From a virus, in IMG/VR virus record IMGVR_UViG_3300033064_001717, positions 1 to 32,491 of that record: a stretch of DNA of 32,491 nucleotides. The stretch is one strand, 5' to 3'. Made by a program: the position numbers and the translations under genes. The notes beneath the pieces were generated by a model. The model did not search any database. It saw only the letters and a program-made list of their open reading frames with translations, and was not told where the DNA came from. Positions 6,892 through 19,092 of this stretch are shown here, piece by piece; within the stretch, counting starts at the first letter, position 1; each line of letters starts with the position of its first letter.

Positions 6892-7103
6892 CGCACTACC
6901 TCCGTGCAGTTTATTCCCGATTCCGGACGTGCCCGGCTAAGATTATATGCGTCAAGGTAACAACGCTTTGCTTCGTTCACTGAATACGCCGAAATCTCCA
7001 ACCGTGGGCAACCGTAACCCATCACCGAATACGTCACCGGTGTTACCGTGGTAGCCGTATGGGTTACGGTTTCTGTCTTAGTCATGCTATTACGCCGCCT
7101 CAT
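6888..7103 (-). CDS. small Thr-rich protein behind capsid gene
   Basis: This 71-residue protein starts at an ATG that overlaps the capsid gene stop as TGATG. An internal ATG seven codons later (MTKTETVTH) is an alternative start, with a GAGGCGG ribosome binding site candidate upstream. The N-terminal half is Thr/Val rich. The second half contains a segment like YSVNEAKRCYLDAYNLSRA, which suggests a small alpha/beta fold. Function is unknown. The conserved tight packing between capsid and connector genes argues that it is expressed. Confidence 0.45.
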   Translation of the reverse strand: MRRRNSMTKTETVTHTATTVTPVTYSVMGYGCPRLEISAYSVNEAKRCYLDAYNLSRARPESGINCTEVVR

Positions 7104-8410
7104 CAGTTCGTGTTAACCATGACGTGCCACGGCGAAATAACGGCAGGAATGCCCCGCTCGCTAGCAAAATAACTAGACACAATCCCGTTGTCCACCATGT
7201 AATACTGGTTTGCCGGGGCTTGCGTAATTGTCAAAGGGAAGTTTTGCATGTATTTAAAACTCTTCCCGCTCTCCATCATCCACCAATATTTGTTGGTGTT
7301 AACCTGAGATAGGGCTAACCCGCCATCGGCAACGGCAGCCAAGCACTGCTGTTCCAACAATGGACTGGTCAGCACTTCAAACTGACTAGCGGTAAACGGG
7401 TTAGCGGCACCCTGCCCGACGTTAAGCGGGTTAGAGGTTGTTTGCGGGGTAGTAGCACCGGAACCGGTACGGCGTTCCATTGAAGTTGCGCCTAGGATTA
7501 TGTTCGCCGTCGCAAGTTTAGCGGGATTAACCAAAACTAGATTAGGCTGAATCATAATCCGCAAGCCGGTGTGCGGGTCAACCGTGCGCATAAACTGTAG
7601 AATATCGGTCTGAAGGCTTTCCCAATCCAACAAGTCGTTAGAAATGCTGTTGGTGAATCCTAGTTGCAACGTGGTGCTGTAGGTGTTGTACGCCGTCCCG
7701 TTGTAGTTGAACGTATTAACTCCACCAATAATGGTGTTAATTATGTCAATTTCCTTGCGGTACGCTAACGCCTCACCGACTCCAGCCGCTTGGTTCAACA
7801 TGTCCCCGGTCAAATCAAAAAACACGGCCTCTTTTGTCACGTCGACCGCTAACGCATTCTCACGGGTTTCAGGGGTGGTGACATATCGCTCGCCAAACTG
7901 CGCCCTGGTGTGCGCCTCGCCCGGCAAACGCTTCCGGCCACGGTCACCGATTGACTGCAAGCCAATCATTTTCTGACCGTTAAGTTTAGTGGGTTCAGCC
8001 GGGCAAATCCGGTCCGCTACCAACGCCGGGTTTTGGAATGCTTGGAGGATTTTTACCTCAATCAAACCACCAACTACGCTGGTAAACGCATTGATGTTCA
8101 GGAACGCAGTCGGGTCAATGCCCACGCCGGAGCTTTCCAGCAATGTCTGCCCCATCGTGCCGCCCTCCGGCGCAAGGGTTCGCTTCCAATTGGGGCCAAC
8201 AATTGCTTCGGCGGATTCCTGAATAGAAAACTGTTCGGGAATCCAAGACGTAGCACCCAACCGGCGGTTGCCGGCCCGGTCACGGTAGTAATTTCCGTTG
8301 CCGTCCACCAGCCCCAGATTCTGCCGTATTTCCTTGGTAAATTGTCGCTGTCCATGCTGAAACTGGGAACGGGACTCAAAAAGAGTACGCAATTTCACGG
8401 GGTCAATCAT
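7103..8410 (-). CDS. major capsid protein (HK97-fold)
   Basis: This 435-residue protein lies downstream of the protease/scaffold and decoration-like genes, the usual place of the major capsid protein. An N-terminal charged helical region (about 1-60) is followed by a segment with FLNINAFTSVVGGLIEVKIL (about 103-122). A central stretch is rich in Arg and Thr, and the C-terminus is beta-rich (MVDNGIVSSYFASERGIPAV). The pattern, size and position suit an HK97-fold capsid protein, though the fold cannot be proven from sequence here. A GGAG ribosome binding site precedes ATG 8410. Whether the N-terminus is cleaved by the neighbouring protease is not visible. Confidence 0.8.
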   Translation of the reverse strand: MIDPVKLRTLFESRSQFQHGQRQFTKEIRQNLGLVDGNGNYYRDRAGNRRLGATSWIPEQFSIQESAEAIVGPNWKRTLAPEGGTMGQTLLESSGVGIDPTAFLNINAFTSVVGGLIEVKILQAFQNPALVADRICPAEPTKLNGQKMIGLQSIGDRGRKRLPGEAHTRAQFGERYVTTPETRENALAVDVTKEAVFFDLTGDMLNQAAGVGEALAYRKEIDIINTIIGGVNTFNYNGTAYNTYSTTLQLGFTNSISNDLLDWESLQTDILQFMRTVDPHTGLRIMIQPNLVLVNPAKLATANIILGATSMERRTGSGATTPQTTSNPLNVGQGAANPFTASQFEVLTSPLLEQQCLAAVADGGLALSQVNTNKYWWMMESGKSFKYMQNFPLTITQAPANQYYMVDNGIVSSYFASERGIPAVISPWHVMVNTN

Positions 8411-10599: not shown

Positions 10600-10926
10600 T
10601 CAAATCGGCCAAACCTGACGTCCGTTTATAAACGTGCCGTTGTCTAAATCCTCAATAGCCTGCATTACCAAATTAACAATTATTGGGTCCGTAGTAGATT
10701 TTGACAAATGTATAGATTCTTTTTTTCCGTTCGGATCTATGCCGTTAATTATCAGATTTGGCATTGTAATTCTGGTTTGCAACGGAACTACCGGCCAACC
10801 GGGACGAGGAAAACGATAGTCGTGGGAATTCCAATTTCCTTCCCCTTCTAAAAACACAAAACTAACCCGGCGTGTCCTGCTATCGTTAGGGTTGTCCACG
10901 ATGTACGTTGCCGAAATTATTTTCAT
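10600..10926 (-). CDS. hypothetical protein
   Basis: This protein of 108 residues from ATG 10926 lies between the 1703-residue gene and the protease-scaffold. The ATG overlaps the upstream stop as TGATG; a GTG one codon earlier (10929) is the alternative. The sequence is soluble, with charged beta-type segments (RRVSFVFLEGEGNW) and a C-terminal helix containing NLVMQAIEDLDNG. The low number of Cys and lack of membrane segments suggest a cytoplasmic or virion protein. Its base composition looks more AT-rich than its neighbours. I do not recognise it; an immunity or modulator partner of the large neighbouring protein is conceivable but unsupported. Confidence 0.5.
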   Translation of the reverse strand: MKIISATYIVDNPNDSRTRRVSFVFLEGEGNWNSHDYRFPRPGWPVVPLQTRITMPNLIINGIDPNGKKESIHLSKSTTDPIIVNLVMQAIEDLDNGTFINGRQVWPI

Positions 10927-13900
10927 CACGCATGGCTCCAGCTTGTTAGACCGATTAGGCTAGGGGCTCCGTAGTATTCCGTTTCAATGTTGTCTGCCAT
11001 GCAAATAAATTCGTTCTCGTGGTCGCCGGCAAACATTGCCCCATTATGTCTTCCGCCCAATGACATTAGGTAAACGCCTAAGATTCGGTGGTAAGGAACT
11101 TCCTTGATTATCAGCTTGGAGTTTGATATTTGGACGGGCTTGAATGCGGCATAACTTTCCAACGCACCAACATTGTGCTGATCCGCTTTCAGGATTTTTG
11201 GCTTGTCCGGTGCCGGGCATTTTGCCGGCAAATTTTTGGGCAATGCGTCCCCTGTCTCCGTGCGATATACACGCATCACCCCGGCCTGCCGGTTGTTGTT
11301 GGGCATGTCAACGTTTCGCAGTAGTTCCATTGACCAAGCCGCCAACATTGCCAAAGATTCTGTCGCTTCTTTTTCGGTAGTTCGAGTGTTTTTTAAGATT
11401 TCTTTTACCGTTTGTTCTCTTTTGTCATTTGTGTTAGAACCGTAGTCCCAATAATAACTGTCCGGCTTTACCCCCGGCCTGTTTTTTACCAAAATTTGTT
11501 TAGCGGCAATTGACCCGTCGGAGGAACTAGATCCGGCTTGCCCCCGTGCATACGTTTCCACAAAATCCATTTTTCCCCCGTTTGCGTCTATGTATTTCCG
11601 TATATCCCCCGACAGCCCTTGCCCCCGCAAGTCGTCAAACGGTTTGCCGTTTTCGTCCTTGGCTTCCTCCCGGTCAATTTTGTTGGCTCCATTAACATCG
11701 CCCAGAATTTTGGGCAGCTTGGCCACCAATCCGCTTTGCCGGTATTGGCATTGATGTTGGGTAACTTTTTTTACGTATTCCTCGCTCCACCCGTCGGCTA
11801 GCAGCATTCGGGACGTGGCGGCAATGTCGGCAAACTGATCTAGCCGCAACCCCAGCATTTTCTTTAATTCCAAGTCGGTGGCGGCATCTAGGATTTGCTG
11901 GCGTGACTGAACTAGCCCTTCTATCTGCCCAACGGTATCGCCCCACGTTAGCCCGCCAAAAACCCGCACGGAATTAGCCCCGGCCCCCTGCGCCTTTCCG
12001 CCGGGCGGGTCTTGGCTCATGGACCACAATTCCGACGGAAAAGCATTCCAGTTGGCGTTCTTTTTTCCGCCTTGCGCCCGGTATCGCAACGAACCGCCGT
12101 TGTCTATTCGGATTGGTTCACCCGCCGGCGTAACCATCACGTTGTCGTTGCCCATGCCCATCACGTCCCAGTTGCCTAGCAATGCGTCAGCGGCAAAATT
12201 CTGTTGTAGCTTTTTGTCTAGCCTCTCCATTTGCGTTTTGGTTGCGGTGTTTTGGTATTCCTTGTAGGTCGCCCCGTCGATTACTTCCGCCAGTTTTACC
12301 GGCTTGCCTTGAACTGTGTGCGTGTCTACAGACGGCACCGCTACGCCGCACGCCGCATAGATTTTGTCGGCGGCGACTTCTTCCGCCAGATGCTCCGGCG
12401 ATGCGCCCATTTTCCGAACAAACTTTCGGCCCGTCGCCGGGTCAGAAACCAGTTCCGCCCCCGTTGATCCACCCAGCACCCGGATTGCCGTTAATGCAGC
12501 AGGATTCTTCGGAAACTCTACCGGCCCGCTAGTAGATTTGTGCGGTGCTGTTGGGCGTGCTTTCGGCACAAACGCCGGGACGTGCGGCACCCGATTTCCA
12601 TTGGCATCGGGTTTAATTCCTAACGCCGGTTTGTTTGTTCCCGCCTTTGGAATAGGGTTCCACCGTGTCGGCTCGTGTAGGTTCGGGGAAACCTTTAAAT
12701 TGGCAATGCTTGGCTTAGGCGGTGCTGCCGGGGCAATTGACGGCGGCGGCGGTGGCGGGTTAACTGGCGGGCTATTAACGGTCGGTAGCGGCACCCCGGC
12801 GGCTAGCTGCTGTAAATGGTGTTTTGCCGCCGCCAAAATTTCCAGATCCCGCTCTTTGCCGCCTTGGTTGGTCGTTCGGTTAATCAGCTTTTCGGCTTCG
12901 TCAAAATCCACCCAAACAACCTGCGAAGTTTCAGGGGTCATAGCTGACGGGTCGTGCGATTCCGATTTCATAAAGTAGAAATTGGTGGAACTATAGCCCG
13001 ACGAAAACGAACCGGGCAAATAACCGACAATTGCCCCTTTGTGTCCAGTTTCCTCTTCTACCTCACGAACTGCCGTATCAGCAGAATGATCTCCGGGGTC
13101 TTGCCCGCCCTTGGCAAATGTCCAGTTATAACCGCCGTAGTTGCCGGTGGGCTTCCGCAACATTATTTTGCCGGCGTTGTCAAACAATATCCCACCGTAC
13201 CCCGTTAGGCCAGTGCCTTTCTTTGGCCCCCAAACGCCTTGGTGCGGTGTTTCTGTTTTGGCTTTTGCCAGCGCATCCGCCCAAGGCAACGCTGCAACGG
13301 AGGTGACTAACGGCGGCACCGCTGTTAATGCCGGCGCAGTCCATAACGGATGCGGCCCAAGCGTGTAATCACCCATAGACAGATTAAGGTTGAAATCTTG
13401 GACAGTTACATTGCCGTAACTTTCAAAATTACCGGTTGAATCGTATTCAATATATTTTATATCGTTGCCAGTTACGCTTGCTATTGTAAAGTTTGCAAAA
13501 TTGTCATGAAACAACGTCCCTACTGCTGGGGCTTGCGTAACGGTTACCGGAACTACTCCAGCTGCGGGGGTTGCATATTTGGGATTTGGTCCATATACCA
13601 AACCTCCGTTTTTTATCTGGTCCAAAAACTCGGCTATGGTTGAATCATAGACGAGTAAAGGGTCTTTTTCTCCGGTTTTTTTGTTCAATCCATTCAAATA
13701 CACCGTATTGTTTGAAACAGAAGTTATTACAAAATTTACGAAATTATCATGAACCAATGTCCCCGCCACCGGGGTTTGTGTGGCGGATGCCGGGCTAGCT
13801 GCCGGCGCATTCGCCGGAACCGGCGCAATAAACTGCGCAACGGCAGCGGGCAACGTGTGAGATGCGTATGTGCCCTTAACCCAAAATCCTGCGGTAAAAA

Positions 13901-16037
13901 GATCGTTAAAATCGGCAACGGTATTGTCATGCGCCGAAACCCATTTGCCGTTAGTGTCGTACGCATCCCAGCTGACAATTCCTTTAATTATTGCCGTAAC
14001 AATTCCCTGCTGAGTCTTGTTTGCCTTGTGAAATACTCCCCCCACGTCAACCACAGATTGGGTAACGGATGCAGCGGGTGCAGGGGTTGCGCCCGGTATT
14101 ATCGGCGGTGTAGTGCCGGGGGCAAACCCCGGAGCATAGTACCCGGTGCTAAAACGATAAGTAAAATCTGTTGCTGAGCAGTCGTCTTTGCCGGTCTTGC
14201 TTCCGTCCGTCCAGTAGGTGGTCCATTTAATGTCATTCCCAACCGCTGTTATTATCCCGTTCATGGTCAGGCTAACGGTGTTGTGGAACTCCATTCCGAT
14301 TACCGGCGGCGGTGCGGGTGCAGGGGCGGGCGTGGGGATGTGCTGCGTTACCTTGTCAAACTTTCCGGGGGCAACGTCGCCCTTTAACTTGGCTAGGTTT
14401 TTGTTGTAAATGTTGGCTAGCGTCCGTATTGACACCTTGCCCTTTTTGTATTTTTGGTACTGACCGGCGGGAATTAACCATTTGTCGTCCCACTTTAATA
14501 GGTGAACATTTGGCTTAAATCCTTTAGCGGAAACCTGCTTTAGCAGTGCGTCCACATCGGTAACGTAATCGGGCAGCGGCGGCACCGGCTTAACGTAGAT
14601 TGTGAAATACCCGGTTTTAAATATGCTGTTTAGTTCAACTACATTTTGCGTGTAACCGGTCGTTACGTCCGGCTTTCCGTCGGGGTCTTTTACGGTCCAC
14701 GTTACCTTTTCGCCGTCGGGCGAAACAGCAAACTTAAATGTGGCACCGACGTAATTCGTGTAGGTTTCGGCTTCCGAGAATTCGGGGGTCGGTGGCGGCG
14801 GTGGCGGGGGCGGCGGTTCCAGATACCCGAACCGTGCTACCTGAATGCCTAGGTCACGGCGGGTTTGAATCGCAGCGGCAACCCCATCCATACGGGATTT
14901 GCGCTCGTCGTCCGATTCGTTCTTAATGTCTTCCACCGGCACTAGCTGACCATCTAACGGGTCTAGCACCGCTGACCAAGTTAACGCCTCGCCCGGTGCT
15001 AAACGGTCTGTGGCCGCCTTCAGCCTTCCAGCCCCTACGGCCCAACGGCGTTCCTGCTCCGTCGCCGTGTCAAACCATTCCGAGTAAACCACCGGGTCGG
15101 GAATCAGCTTTTTGTCGTTGGTCAGAAATAACGCTTTGGCGGCGGGGTCGTTTTCAATATCGGGGTCCATCGACAACACCGGGGACAGGTAACACCGGCA
15201 ATTAAACGCAACGCTGCCGTCTGCCTCCATCGGGGGGTGGGGCATGTCGTCCGCAACCGATAGCTCACCGGGGGCAGGGGTAATTTTGTAAACGTTGCCG
15301 TTGCGTAGGGCGTGGTGTGGCCGAATACGCCAGTCCATTGTCCCGTGGATTTGGTAGCCAATCAGCATGTCGCCTAACCCGTCAAACGCCTGCATCCGGG
15401 CAGCGTGCGCTACCCGCAACCCTTCCGTCCGGGCTACCCGTCTGGCGGTTACCCGGTTCCCCTGCACTATCGGTGCTAGTGCCGCCGTCAGCTGTTGGAC
15501 CGTTGCCCCTTGCGCTGCCTGCATTGCCACTATTGCCGCTATCTGGTCTGGCGATCCAAGCCCCGTTTGCGCTTGAATCCGGGCCTGCCAAGTTGTCCCC
15601 TTGGAAGGGGCGTTTACTATTTCCTCCGCCTCCGTCTGTGTTATTGGGGGAATTAGCTGGGCCTGCACCTGCGCCGATTCCGCCGGGGTTAATTTGGCTT
15701 CCTTTACCGCCGTGGTCTGTAACGCCAACGCAATTACGGCCCGTGGACTCTCTACCACTAAATCCATCGCCTGCTGCCGGTGGGTGATTTTTGCCAGCTT
15801 TGTCATGCCGTCGGTCAACCGGCTAATTGCGCCGGTGGAAATCCCCCGCAGCATTTCCGCTAGCCGTTTTTGCAGGTCGGGGGGCGGTGGCGACATTCGC
15901 AGCAATCGCAGAATCCGGTTCCACGCCTTTAGCGTGGCGGCATCAACCTCGTCGGCTAAATCGTCGGTATGCACCAGCGCACGGGCCTGACTAATGCCGG
16001 CCCGTGCAGCCATCCGTGAATTGAACGCTAGCGACAT
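10926..16037 (-). CDS. giant minor head protein: gp7/Mu F domain + repeats + Nudix + kinase-like + ADP-ribosyltransferase-like
   Basis: This 1703-residue protein follows the portal gene, the normal position of SPP1 gp7/Mu F-type minor head proteins. Residues about 150-290 carry that domain (VARTEGLRVAHAAR, then HALRNGNVY and a CRC at 280-282). After a Pro-rich hinge (408-416) come five beta-type modules at about 428-482, 581-637, 666-722, 759-816 and 840-895. A Nudix domain spans about 925-1065, with box G977-x5-D983-x7-R991-E-V-E-E995-E996-x-G998; Asp replaces the usual first Glu. Residues about 1180-1410 look HipA/PI4K kinase-like (K1205 or K1209, D1284-x4-N1289-x-D1291, RIDNGG with D1312). 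The C-terminus (about 1560-1690) fits an R-S-E ADP-ribosyltransferase: R1592, S1628, E1674-N-E1676. Such head proteins can be ejected with the DNA, so the enzymes may act in the host. Activities are inferred. Confidence 0.75.
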   Translation of the reverse strand: MSLAFNSRMAARAGISQARALVHTDDLADEVDAATLKAWNRILRLLRMSPPPPDLQKRLAEMLRGISTGAISRLTDGMTKLAKITHRQQAMDLVVESPRAVIALALQTTAVKEAKLTPAESAQVQAQLIPPITQTEAEEIVNAPSKGTTWQARIQAQTGLGSPDQIAAIVAMQAAQGATVQQLTAALAPIVQGNRVTARRVARTEGLRVAHAARMQAFDGLGDMLIGYQIHGTMDWRIRPHHALRNGNVYKITPAPGELSVADDMPHPPMEADGSVAFNCRCYLSPVLSMDPDIENDPAAKALFLTNDKKLIPDPVVYSEWFDTATEQERRWAVGAGRLKAATDRLAPGEALTWSAVLDPLDGQLVPVEDIKNESDDERKSRMDGVAAAIQTRRDLGIQVARFGYLEPPPPPPPPPTPEFSEAETYTNYVGATFKFAVSPDGEKVTWTVKDPDGKPDVTTGYTQNVVELNSIFKTGYFTIYVKPVPPLPDYVTDVDALLKQVSAKGFKPNVHLLKWDDKWLIPAGQYQKYKKGKVSIRTLANIYNKNLAKLKGDVAPGKFDKVTQHIPTPAPAPAPPPVIGMEFHNTVSLTMNGIITAVGNDIKWTTYWTDGSKTGKDDCSATDFTYRFSTGYYAPGFAPGTTPPIIPGATPAPAASVTQSVVDVGGVFHKANKTQQGIVTAIIKGIVSWDAYDTNGKWVSAHDNTVADFNDLFTAGFWVKGTYASHTLPAAVAQFIAPVPANAPAASPASATQTPVAGTLVHDNFVNFVITSVSNNTVYLNGLNKKTGEKDPLLVYDSTIAEFLDQIKNGGLVYGPNPKYATPAAGVVPVTVTQAPAVGTLFHDNFANFTIASVTGNDIKYIEYDSTGNFESYGNVTVQDFNLNLSMGDYTLGPHPLWTAPALTAVPPLVTSVAALPWADALAKAKTETPHQGVWGPKKGTGLTGYGGILFDNAGKIMLRKPTGNYGGYNWTFAKGGQDPGDHSADTAVREVEEETGHKGAIVGYLPGSFSSGYSSTNFYFMKSESHDPSAMTPETSQVVWVDFDEAEKLINRTTNQGGKERDLEILAAAKHHLQQLAAGVPLPTVNSPPVNPPPPPPSIAPAAPPKPSIANLKVSPNLHEPTRWNPIPKAGTNKPALGIKPDANGNRVPHVPAFVPKARPTAPHKSTSGPVEFPKNPAALTAIRVLGGSTGAELVSDPATGRKFVRKMGASPEHLAEEVAADKIYAACGVAVPSVDTHTVQGKPVKLAEVIDGATYKEYQNTATKTQMERLDKKLQQNFAADALLGNWDVMGMGNDNVMVTPAGEPIRIDNGGSLRYRAQGGKKNANWNAFPSELWSMSQDPPGGKAQGAGANSVRVFGGLTWGDTVGQIEGLVQSRQQILDAATDLELKKMLGLRLDQFADIAATSRMLLADGWSEEYVKKVTQHQCQYRQSGLVAKLPKILGDVNGANKIDREEAKDENGKPFDDLRGQGLSGDIRKYIDANGGKMDFVETYARGQAGSSSSDGSIAAKQILVKNRPGVKPDSYYWDYGSNTNDKREQTVKEILKNTRTTEKEATESLAMLAAWSMELLRNVDMPNNNRQAGVMRVYRTETGDALPKNLPAKCPAPDKPKILKADQHNVGALESYAAFKPVQISNSKLIIKEVPYHRILGVYLMSLGGRHNGAMFAGDHENEFICMADNIETEYYGAPSLIGLTSWSHA
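13353..14756 (-). repeat. five diverged beta-type repeat modules inside the giant head protein
   Basis: The encoded modules share a pattern: a Gly, two residues, Phe/Val-His, then about ten residues, an Ile/Val-rich strand ending near Asn-Asp, a Trp/Tyr strand, a polar loop, a T-V-x-D-F segment and an F-x-x-G-x-Y/F end. Modules 4 and 5 (residues 759-816 and 840-895) are most alike, both beginning GTL-x-HDNF-x-NF, which suggests a recent duplication. Pro/Ala-rich linkers of 20-30 residues separate them. They could be spacer or binding domains between the head-bound N-terminus and the enzymatic C-terminus. Confidence 0.65.
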
Positions 16038-17617
16038 TACGCTGCCTCATCGCCGCCGTCGTCTAAGGGCTCCATCGGTAGCGGGCTCGTCGCGCCGTCC
16101 CGCTGTGATAGTTCCTCACGGTTAGCAGTTTCTTCGTCCCAATCCAGACCGATTTCGTGGGTGATGGTCTGCGGGGATTTGATGCCCAGCGTAGCGTAAA
16201 CTTGGTTGGCCTGCGCCTCCGCCGTTTTGTCACGGGCTTCAACGCTGGGCGGGGTAGCCTGCACCGCCACTAAGTCCAGCGCATTCTCCGGCAGCTGACC
16301 ATCGGATATTCGGCATTGAATCGCCGCCTTAATTACCTTTAAGAACGGACGTTTTAGCACGGTTTGCAGCCGTATGCAATTCCGCAAAAACGGGCTTTCT
16401 GCCGTCAAACTACTGGCATAATTGTTGTTGCTAGCATCGCTGCTAACCAGCCACTCCGGGGCGTTGTGCCGGTTACCCGCTGACCGTAACAATGCTTGGA
16501 ACGCCTCTAAATGTGCGGCCACGTTGGCCCCGCCGGGGGGCTGGATGTAGTTCATGCCTTTTGGGATGTCCACAAACGAACCGGATTGAATCGCTTGGTA
16601 GTCGCTTGGCCTTCCATTGGCGATTGGCGAAAACGCTGAATAGTCTATCTGTGTTTGGAGGAACGAATCTACCTGAGCTGCGCTGGCGGCATCGTGCTGC
16701 CGGATTCCGGCAATCGCCGCCTGAATACTGGCCCCCTCGCCGACGTTCCGCCGCAACTTGCCGGCAATGTTAAACGTGTCCAGCGTGTCGTAGCTGAAAT
16801 CCGACAACCCCCGTTTAATCGCTCTTTTGACGTTGCTTTTAACATGGATGATTTCGCCAGCGGGCACTATTTCCCCTTGCCCCTCCGGCCCGTCCTTTCC
16901 CGCCGGGGCGGAATATGCAACATGGTAGGCGATTATGTTGCAAACGTCGTCAGGGTCGGTTTCAATTCCGTAGCTCCACTCATCTAGTGACGTGCCGCCC
17001 GGCTGAAATATTTGTTCCGGTTCCACCGTCCGAACCATCAGCCTTCCATCTGCCTGCGGAAACAGCCGCAAGAAAAACTCGCCGTCTTCCCGGCTCCGCC
17101 AAAACAGTTCCTGTTCTAATTCGTCCCAAGCGTTATCGTCAATAAATTCGTCCACTATTTTTTGGATCTGATTGACGAGCTTGGGATATTGGTTCTGCCC
17201 CGGCAGCCCCTGCACCGTGTACTTGAATCCCGACCCAATAACGTAACTGGTCAGACCGTTTAGCAACCCGGTGGCGTTAGGGTTCATCGTGACACAAATC
17301 CGGGCTTGTGCCCGGATCATTGACAACTGGCTCTCGGAATACCAAAACGGGTAGTTGCTGCCGTACCGTCTATCGGTTGGCTGGGCTATCGGGTAGTTTG
17401 CCGAATTGCCGTCGGCAAACCGTGACAACATGTCGCTATAGCCGGATAGCCAATAATCCGAATTAACGTAGCCTTCTGTTAACTTTGCCCGCCGCTGCAC
17501 CGCCCGAAGTTTCATCCCTTCCTCAATTTCCTCACGCTGTTCCCGCAGGCTTTTGGCAACGGGGGCGACATTATGCACCGGCTGAGATGCGGTGGTTTCC
17601 CAGATCGGCTTGTTCAA
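16037..17617 (-). CDS. portal protein
   Basis: The portal forms the dodecameric ring at one capsid vertex through which DNA enters and leaves. This 526-residue protein lies between the large terminase and the minor head protein, and the length is normal. Characteristic segments are ARICVTMNPNATGLLNGLTSYV (after about residue 105), EQELFWRSREDGEFFLRLF in the middle, and a RTVEPEQIFQPGG turn. A GEIIHVKSNVKRAIKRGLSDF stretch precedes the stem-helix region. The C-terminal part has DWDEETANREELSQRD and ends in an acidic tail. The start overlaps the terminase stop by 4 bases and its stop shares a base with the next ATG. The identification is firm from context and pattern. Confidence 0.85.
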   Translation of the reverse strand: MNKPIWETTASQPVHNVAPVAKSLREQREEIEEGMKLRAVQRRAKLTEGYVNSDYWLSGYSDMLSRFADGNSANYPIAQPTDRRYGSNYPFWYSESQLSMIRAQARICVTMNPNATGLLNGLTSYVIGSGFKYTVQGLPGQNQYPKLVNQIQKIVDEFIDDNAWDELEQELFWRSREDGEFFLRLFPQADGRLMVRTVEPEQIFQPGGTSLDEWSYGIETDPDDVCNIIAYHVAYSAPAGKDGPEGQGEIVPAGEIIHVKSNVKRAIKRGLSDFSYDTLDTFNIAGKLRRNVGEGASIQAAIAGIRQHDAASAAQVDSFLQTQIDYSAFSPIANGRPSDYQAIQSGSFVDIPKGMNYIQPPGGANVAAHLEAFQALLRSAGNRHNAPEWLVSSDASNNNYASSLTAESPFLRNCIRLQTVLKRPFLKVIKAAIQCRISDGQLPENALDLVAVQATPPSVEARDKTAEAQANQVYATLGIKSPQTITHEIGLDWDEETANREELSQRDGATSPLPMEPLDDGGDEAA

Positions 17618-19092
17618 GTTCGTAATCTCCGCACGGTGTTCCCCAACGCTGCCCGCCCGTTATGTATCTGGATCATAACACGCAACGCCATTTCCAGCGA
17701 ATCTGGCCCGTCGTCGTGTCCGGCAACGGGGAAATCCCGCAGCTGATCCATTAGCAAACGGGTGCCCGGAGTGTTGCGGAACCGAATTCCTTTAGCCGCC
17801 AGATACGGCCCTAACCGCCGGATTCTTACCGCCTTGCTAACCGTGTTAACCAGCGGCACTATCGGCATTTGCTGCCCGCTTGCCCGTGCCGCCGCTGCTA
17901 TTTGCGTGGCCAGCAATTCCTGAAATTGATTGGTTTCTATTGCTACCGCTTCCGCCGGAAAAACACGGTGGGCTTCAACCATTGCCCCCACAATTTCCTC
18001 AGTAGATCGGCGGGCCAAGTCCGCTTCAACCCATAGCGTTCCCTCCACCGTCCGGGCTAATTTTACGATAGCCGAATAGTCGCCGTGCCGGGAAGACGCT
18101 CCCTTTGACGGGTCTAACGCAATGGTGCGCAGGTTAATGCCTTCCGGCCATTCATCAAACATCAGCCCTTTTTCAAAATAACTTTGCGGCCATTCTACCC
18201 CACCGCCAACCCGTGGAGACTGCTGGTATAGTGCCTGCCATTGGTATTCCCCGATACTTTTCCGCATCCTGCTCAGGTCTTCCATCGGGAACATCTCCGG
18301 CCACAGGGCCTGACCTGGTTCCCGCTGATCGGGGTAAACCACCGGGTCATTAGAAATAGCCGGGAAGTTTAGCACCTCCCACCGGTCCCCTTCCGGGGTT
18401 TCGTCGCTTAGTTTGACCAGCCGCCCAGCCAAATCGTCGGTGTGCCAACGGGTCATGATTACGATTATGCGGGCATCCGGGGTTTGGCGTGTGTACAGCG
18501 TAGACGTAAACCAATCCCAAACCTTTTCACGCATCGTCAGGCTGTCGGCTTCCTCCCGGTTTTTTAATGGATCATCTACAATTAACCACCGTGCCCCCAT
18601 GCCAGTTATGCCACCGCCGACGCCGGTAGACCGATAGCTGCCGCCGTGCCCCACCACTTCAAACACATCAGAATTCCGCAGCCAGGAACCGGCCACGGCT
18701 CGGCTGTTGGTGTCGTTCAGCCGTGTTCCAGGAAACAGCCTGGCATAGGCCGGCAAGGTAATTATCCGCTGAATATCCCGATTCATTCGACCGGCTAAGT
18801 CGGCACCATAACTAGACGAAATGATGGTTTCTGCCGGGTTTAGTCCCAGCAGGTAGGCTGGTAGCCGCCGGCTGATCAGTTCTGATTTTCCATGGCGTGG
18901 CGGCATTGAAACTATCAGTCGCCGAAGGTTACCGTAAACCATGCGCTCCACGGCGTCGGCAATAACCCGATGATGCCAGCCCGGCTGATAGTCCGGCATA
19001 GTGTACCGGCAAAAATCTATTAGTTTACGTCGTGCTATCCGGCGGGCCAATAATTCCGCCGCTGCCTCGCACAATATCGGCAAGCTGTTCAT
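17614..19092 (-). CDS. terL: terminase large subunit
   Basis: This packaging motor cuts concatemeric DNA and pumps it into the prohead. The 492-residue protein has an N-terminal ATPase with Walker A PPRHGKS (64-70), Walker B WLIVDDP (169-175) and a coupling motif MTRWHTDD (213-220). The C-terminal RNase H-like nuclease has acidic residues at D327 (TIALDPSKG), E386 (VAIETNQF) and in HDDGPDSLEMAL near the end. Length and motif order are standard. ATG 19092 lies inside the small-subunit gene, giving an unusually long 68-base overlap. A later start is possible, because the first visible conserved segment begins around residue 30 (YTMPDYQPGWHH). Confidence 0.92.
   Translation of the reverse strand: MNSLPILCEAAAELLARRIARRKLIDFCRYTMPDYQPGWHHRVIADAVERMVYGNLRRLIVSMPPRHGKSELISRRLPAYLLGLNPAETIISSSYGADLAGRMNRDIQRIITLPAYARLFPGTRLNDTNSRAVAGSWLRNSDVFEVVGHGGSYRSTGVGGGITGMGARWLIVDDPLKNREEADSLTMREKVWDWFTSTLYTRQTPDARIIVIMTRWHTDDLAGRLVKLSDETPEGDRWEVLNFPAISNDPVVYPDQREPGQALWPEMFPMEDLSRMRKSIGEYQWQALYQQSPRVGGGVEWPQSYFEKGLMFDEWPEGINLRTIALDPSKGASSRHGDYSAIVKLARTVEGTLWVEADLARRSTEEIVGAMVEAHRVFPAEAVAIETNQFQELLATQIAAAARASGQQMPIVPLVNTVSKAVRIRRLGPYLAAKGIRFRNTPGTRLLMDQLRDFPVAGHDDGPDSLEMALRVMIQIHNGRAALGNTVRRLRT

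Follow-up and report, generated by a model that had tools for sequence, protein, structure and literature searches.

Why does the gene for a phage minor head protein go on to encode three enzyme-like domains? The question arises at positions 10926-16037 (minus strand) of the IMG/VR virus record IMGVR_UViG_3300033064_001717, a 32.5-kb record analysed here over its whole length of 32,491 nucleotides (the window). There, one intact open reading frame (ORF) of 1703 codons joins an N-terminal MuF (SPP1 gp7) head region to a long arm, a Nudix domain, a kinase-like domain and an ADP-ribosyltransferase (ART)-like domain (Table 1). The protein is probably a MuF-anchored, head-packaged and injected effector that modifies the host, with the kinase-ART pair as its core. 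MuF and polyvalent effectors are themselves already known; what is new is an uncatalogued family of kinases, together with the near-obligate association between this family and an ART.

The kinase has relatives in several phage groups by tblastn. A search with an alignment of eight sequences then found 501 relatives among viral contigs and another 91 among genomes sampled at one per species, and the loci of 80 of the former and 80 of the latter were fetched. An ART lies in the same ORF or at most 3 kb away for 83 of 137 non-redundant kinases. Mapped on the tree of these kinases, the ART state undergoes 25 changes, where shuffled states give 66. A search that started from the ART, used no kinase sequence and replaced the broad alignment by a closer ART set returned 33 loci with a kinase in the same ORF at 31 and in a neighbouring ORF at one. 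The remaining locus (L212) matches over 20 residues, without confirmation by the ART profile. Furthermore, all ten ART-bearing contigs missed by the kinase search carry a kinase in the same ORF. Since 32 of the 33 ART-side loci have a kinase, kinase and ART are nearly inseparable in the collection searched. Judged by gene content, the predicted kinase and ART are the core pair in many viruses and prophages, and the Nudix domain is less closely tied to them.

Specifically, a Nudix domain is fused or adjacent in 23 of the 137 kinase loci, changes state at least ten times on the kinase tree and is missing from the nearest relative (L010); it is an optional accessory of the kinase-ART core. The original prediction, made from the letters of the window, had treated ART and Nudix as the linked pair. 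This did not hold, as the tight pair is that of kinase and ART. The same prediction called the three-enzyme combination unusual, which it is; it is not unique to the present virus, since the fused order MuF-Nudix-kinase-ART recurs in at least six other contigs (L027, L042, L067, L096, L191 and L192) and thus in at least seven proteins. One Chloroflexota genome bin (G005) holds two similar copies of a large Nudix-kinase-ART gene, on contigs C14 and C107.

The kinase region received no family name from Pfam, PHROGs, NCBIfam or PADLOC. A sequence search with the whole protein returned no viral contig, and the first kinase profile and a combined kinase-ART profile, like a profile of the ART, gave nothing useful against the PDB. 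We therefore relied on predicted folds. For residues 1160-1703, an AlphaFold model based on 47 sequences reached a predicted local distance difference test (pLDDT) of 90.3 and a predicted template modelling score (pTM) of 0.92. In structural comparison with the PDB, its kinase part was nearest to CtkA (3akk; Z 14.8, 216 residues, root-mean-square deviation (rmsd) 3.8), followed by HipT (8ezr, Z 12.1) and actin-fragmin kinase (1cja, Z 12.0); ordinary protein kinases reached Z of about 10-11. In the model, residues 1169-1408 take up a HipA/CtkA-type kinase fold with the ATP lysine, the alpha-C glutamate, the catalytic aspartate, the asparagine and the magnesium aspartate. A HipA-like kinase had been proposed for this region, and both these structural matches and the conservation of the residues named bear it out. 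No PI4K chain was among the PDB matches listed, and that list cannot settle the proposed likeness to PI4K. Pfam HipA_C did not match the 1703-residue protein, and among the fully scanned relatives its best match (E 0.018, 15.1 bits) lay below the cutoff of 30.5 bits.

Conservation agrees with the modelled fold. The alignment of eight kinase sequences has invariant K, E, NWD, DN and DxGG; D1284, N1289, D1291 and D1312 are invariant in it. All of K1209, E1220, D1291, N1299 and D1312 are present in 135 of the 137 non-redundant kinases; the loci were fetched by patterns containing NWD or DxGGSL, so that N1289, D1291 and D1312 are in part conserved by construction, with K1209, E1220 and N1299 lying outside the patterns. 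The predicted kinases are a widespread, uncatalogued family. Verrucomicrobiota, Cyanobacteria and Chloroflexota are the groups indicated by relatives of the kinase, which gives no host assignment for the present virus. The best viral structure match, BFVD entry A0A6J5S481 (36% identity, 1201 residues), is named an HK97 portal and suggests a portal-kinase fusion. In genomes of the Pseudomonas syringae group (L112, L113, L130 and L144), a kinase followed by a Nudix domain forms one protein of 555-755 residues with no MuF or ART match, and L060 (5398-10209) has an SNF2-type helicase fused with kinase and Nudix.

For the ART region, no Pfam ART or ADPrib_exo_Tox match rose above cutoff in any of 29 members, and the region likewise went unnamed in PHROGs, NCBIfam and PADLOC. 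Conservation is nevertheless strict at the C-terminal R-S-E pattern put forward in the original prediction: among 43 distinct relatives, where aligned, R1592 and S1628 are each kept in 42 of 42, and E1674 and E1676 in 41 of 41. Modelled separately, residues 1436-1703 (pLDDT 84.4, pTM 0.85) gave weak Foldseek matches, the best of which, at E 0.017, was an ART toxin. After structural realignment, the top 44 PDB rows were all ARTs of the R-S-E type (Z 4.2-5.8), led by iota toxin Ia (1giq; Z 5.8, rmsd 4.6, 153 residues). In other members a second ART version, above the Pfam ART and ADPrib_exo_Tox cutoffs in those checked, occupies the same place after the kinase. Among 171 kinase-bearing ORFs, 46 have the version of the present protein (23 with MuF), 53 have the second (7 with MuF) and none has both. 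Because the scores alone are modest, we base the assignment on the consistency of the structural neighbours, the invariant residues and this replacement by a second version; residues 1561-1703 are predicted to be an R-S-E ART, with the conserved arginine, the serine motif, the ExE motif and the ART fold. A further protein with the Pfam-recognised ART version lies near kinase-ART or kinase-Nudix genes in L015 (521-2122), L016 (508-2121), L020 (2623-4803), L035 (6719-9067) and L048 (3267-5090).

The helical segment between the two enzymes (residues 1409-1560) is conserved along with the ART, its profile finding 60 significant stretches in the fetched ORFs. The high pTM of the joint model over 544 residues hints that the kinase, the helical segment and the ART are packed together into a single unit. 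A bolder proposal, which we consider doubtful, is that the two enzymes form one rigid body whose linked reactions modify one and the same host target, that the Nudix domain trims the ADP-ribose mark in some phages, and that the kinase represents a new, widespread family with a specialisation for delivery by the phage particle.

At the other end of the chain, the MuF match scored 38.8 bits against a curated cutoff of 29.6, in agreement with PHROGs, and this part is 41% identical to residues 1-402 of L010. The long repeat arm that had been described does exist: residues 416-900 contain five units with weak mutual similarity, each about 65 residues long (residues 416-486, 580-640, 661-725, 752-818 and 835-900), and several unit pairs outscore all 1000 shuffles in pairwise alignment. 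The arm was absent from every other fetched ORF. In L010, an unrelated proline-rich arm stands in place of arm and Nudix, and the MuF part and the kinase-ART part (40% identity) are retained. In the MuF-Nudix-kinase-ART protein of L042 (2842-7437), the stretch from MuF to Nudix gives Hint/intein-like matches, above cutoff for PF07591 (335-413) and below it for PF14890 (363-760).

The Nudix domain scored 47.1 bits against a cutoff of 21.1 (PF00293, residues 948-1050). Its catalytic helix (REUxEExGU) retains R991, E992, E995, E996 and G998, and E992 and E996 are kept in 26 of 26 aligned relatives. The Nudix box was correctly placed at residues 977-998, except that its first glutamate position is occupied by D983. 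With that correction, all four domains of the original prediction stand with their boundaries and catalytic residues, MuF and Nudix through Pfam, and kinase and ART through the AlphaFold models and conservation. Against the PDB, the Nudix family profile found a diadenosine tetraphosphate (Ap4A) hydrolase best (3i7u, E 2e-20) and then many Nudix classes, so that ADP-ribose or NAD is only a possible substrate.

Cultured phages provide a view of the particle. In phages of about 90 kb that infect Enterobacter, Yersinia, Aeromonas, Morganella and Pseudomonas, consecutive genes encode a large kinase-ART protein, a protein of about 160 residues and a Nudix protein. In the deposited record of Yersinia phage fHe-Yen8-01, all three products are labelled particle associated, as are the portal, major head, sheath and baseplate proteins. 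The presence of kinase-ART and Nudix proteins in particles is thus supported indirectly, by annotation. Cultured phages with the same trio, such as Pseudomonas phages Dolphis and Touem01 and Aeromonas phage ST4, make the idea testable. The intervening protein of about 160 residues, which has no family assignment, lies between the kinase-ART and Nudix genes in L002-L006 and L008 and has the particle-associated label in L003.

The proposal of a head-packaged, injected effector set, already part of the original prediction, is backed by the MuF fusion, the gene position and the labelled homologues of the Yersinia phage. The N-terminal MuF part would seat the protein in the head near the portal, and the repetitive, proline-rich arm would hold the three catalytic domains within the capsid. 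Either the whole protein or just its tail would then enter the host along with the DNA. Early in infection, kinase and ART would act as a unit that phosphorylates and ADP-ribosylates host proteins. The Nudix domain would cleave compounds in which a nucleoside diphosphate is linked to another group (NDP-X); candidate substrates are by-products, ADP-ribose marks, Ap4A-type alarmones and RNA caps. One phage-delivered protein would thereby combine two forms of protein modification.

Several points weigh against this account. For the present phage, the case is built on sequence and predicted structures. The particle-associated label is a deposited annotation whose method is not readable, and it is also attached to a DNA primase, so that carry-over is possible. 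The kinase lacks the standard HxD motif, and its D-to-N spacing is 8 residues, which makes any assignment of a phosphoryl acceptor tentative. The structural scores of the ART stay below Z 6. Finally, hhalign aligned the R and S motifs of the two ART versions, at an E value of only 0.043 and a probability of 1.2%; this match is too weak to prove a common origin of the two.

Could the protein instead be a MuF polymorphic toxin, whose C-terminal enzymes poison competitors or superinfected cells on behalf of a temperate phage, with immunity encoded by a neighbouring gene? MuF proteins with C-terminal toxin domains, ARTs among them, have been described as a family found in temperate phages (PMC5576092), the C-terminal ART is swapped between two versions here, and several relatives reside in bacterial genomes. 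However, no conserved immunity gene was seen: the 109-residue ORF after the 1703-residue gene has no Pfam match, and in L010 only 180 bases precede the next head gene, which leaves no room for one. Two to three enzymes in a chain also suit host takeover better than a single toxin, and we consider this explanation unlikely. Counter-defence, in which the injected Nudix and ART would act on NAD-derived signals or defence enzymes, draws on the proposal that phages use Nudix and ADP-ribose-processing proteins against NAD-derived immune signals (PMC9503650). The Nudix domain is, however, absent from most kinase-ART proteins and from L010, its profile is nearer to Ap4A hydrolase than to ADP-ribose pyrophosphatases, and a host-modifying ART alone does not remove NAD signals. 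We found no evidence that backs a specific role against NAD-based defence, and this reading appears quite improbable.

The enzyme-like domains might also be mainly structural or act in head assembly, for example by modifying phage proteins rather than host ones. Their late-gene position and the structural nature of MuF would fit such a role. A HipA-like kinase encoded between the portal and capsid genes of Gratiaviridae has been argued, on that ground, to act late (PMC8008677). Yet the catalytic residues are kept almost perfectly across widely diverged members, ART effectors typically target host molecules, and packaging accounts for the late position, given the MuF fusion and the particle label. 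We regard an assembly role as very improbable. A head-packaged protein also offers an alternative explanation for the position of the Gratiaviridae kinase, and kinase genes within phage head clusters may be cargo rather than late-acting enzymes.

The favoured explanation, an injected kinase-ART effector, has several relatives among known systems. In caudoviruses, the same MuF head domain is joined to an ART or to a Nudix domain, in proteins predicted to be head-packaged and injected (PMC9503650, 2022). In contrast to those fusions, the present protein has ART and Nudix in one chain plus a kinase, no such kinase being mentioned in the text of that paper, and its ART is unmatched by the Pfam ART models. 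The polyvalent proteins of phages, which are present in Verrucomicrobia prophages, are likewise large effectors that string several domains, ARTs and kinases among them, into one chain (PMC5512222, 2017). With Nudix, kinase, ART and MuF in one ORF, the present protein shares their defining feature of at least two effector domains in a virion-linked large protein. However, the polyvalent-protein kinase lacks the whole C-terminal lobe and has a conserved histidine before the catalytic aspartate, whereas the present kinase has a helical C-terminal part. Several helices follow the catalytic strands in the model, so that loss of this lobe does not describe it, and no such conserved histidine was found in alignments of the family. 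Their main ART clade is of the H-Y-D type, and the present ART of the R-S-E type.

With HipA, CtkA, HipT and the actin-fragmin kinases, the present kinase shares the fold and the catalytic K/E/D/N/D set (Z 12-15), but at 16% identity or less and below the Pfam HipA_C cutoff. Unlike HipA-type kinases, it sits in a phage head protein beside an ART, and the chain contains no Hip antitoxin. The Gratiaviridae kinase, likened here by description only, is likewise HipA-like and located in a head gene cluster, and the accessible text reports no link to MuF or ART (PMC8008677). T4 Alt is a virion ART that is packaged and injected with the DNA (as cited in PMC5512222). The proposed effector is similar in logic to T4 Alt, which likewise enters with the DNA, and to the T7 protein kinase. 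The Alt chain is not known to contain a MuF, kinase or Nudix domain. No description of the kinase-ART pair was found in the openly readable literature, and an earlier description elsewhere is possible.

Table 1. Features of the 1703-residue protein and of its head gene cluster in the window
Feature	Position	Strand	Evidence
Whole MuF-arm-Nudix-kinase-ART protein, 1703 residues	10926..16037	-	Single intact ORF
MuF/SPP1 gp7 minor head region, residues 1-345 (Pfam core 170-284)	15003..16037	-	PF04233 E 1.7e-9; phrog_595 E 2e-15; phrog_115 E 5e-13
Repeat arm, five units of ~65 residues with Pro/Ala-rich spacers	13338..14792	-	Pairwise alignment against shuffles
Nudix domain, residues 945-1057, box G977...REVEEETG998	12867..13205	-	PF00293 E 3.1e-12; alignment of relatives; PDB profile
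Proline-rich linker, residues 1081-1160 (29% Pro)	12558..12797	-	Composition
Predicted HipA/CtkA-like kinase domain, residues 1169-1408; K1209, E1220, D1291, N1299, D1312	11814..12533	-	AlphaFold model and PDB comparison; conservation
Helical segment between kinase and ART, residues 1409-1560	11358..11813	-	Profile; helices in models
Predicted R-S-E ART core, residues 1561-1703; R1592, S1628, E1674, E1676	10929..11357	-	Conservation; model and PDB comparison
Portal protein, lambda family, immediately upstream	16037..17617	-	PF05136 E 1.2e-14
Terminase large subunit	17614..19092	-	PF03237 E 3.8e-16
Major capsid protein, downstream, same head gene cluster	7103..8410	-	PF25209 E 3.2e-6

The start codon (ATG) of the 1703-codon ORF overlaps the stop of the portal gene, and the large terminase gene lies further upstream. 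Downstream are more head-region genes, of which the last encodes the major capsid protein, with the major tail protein beyond. This slot between portal and capsid is the usual one for a MuF/gp7 minor head protein, and the MuF match together with the portal ORF directly upstream confirms the minor-head-protein position that had been predicted. Around the nearest relative, L010, homologues of the terminase large subunit, portal and capsid proteins and of two in-between genes are also conserved.

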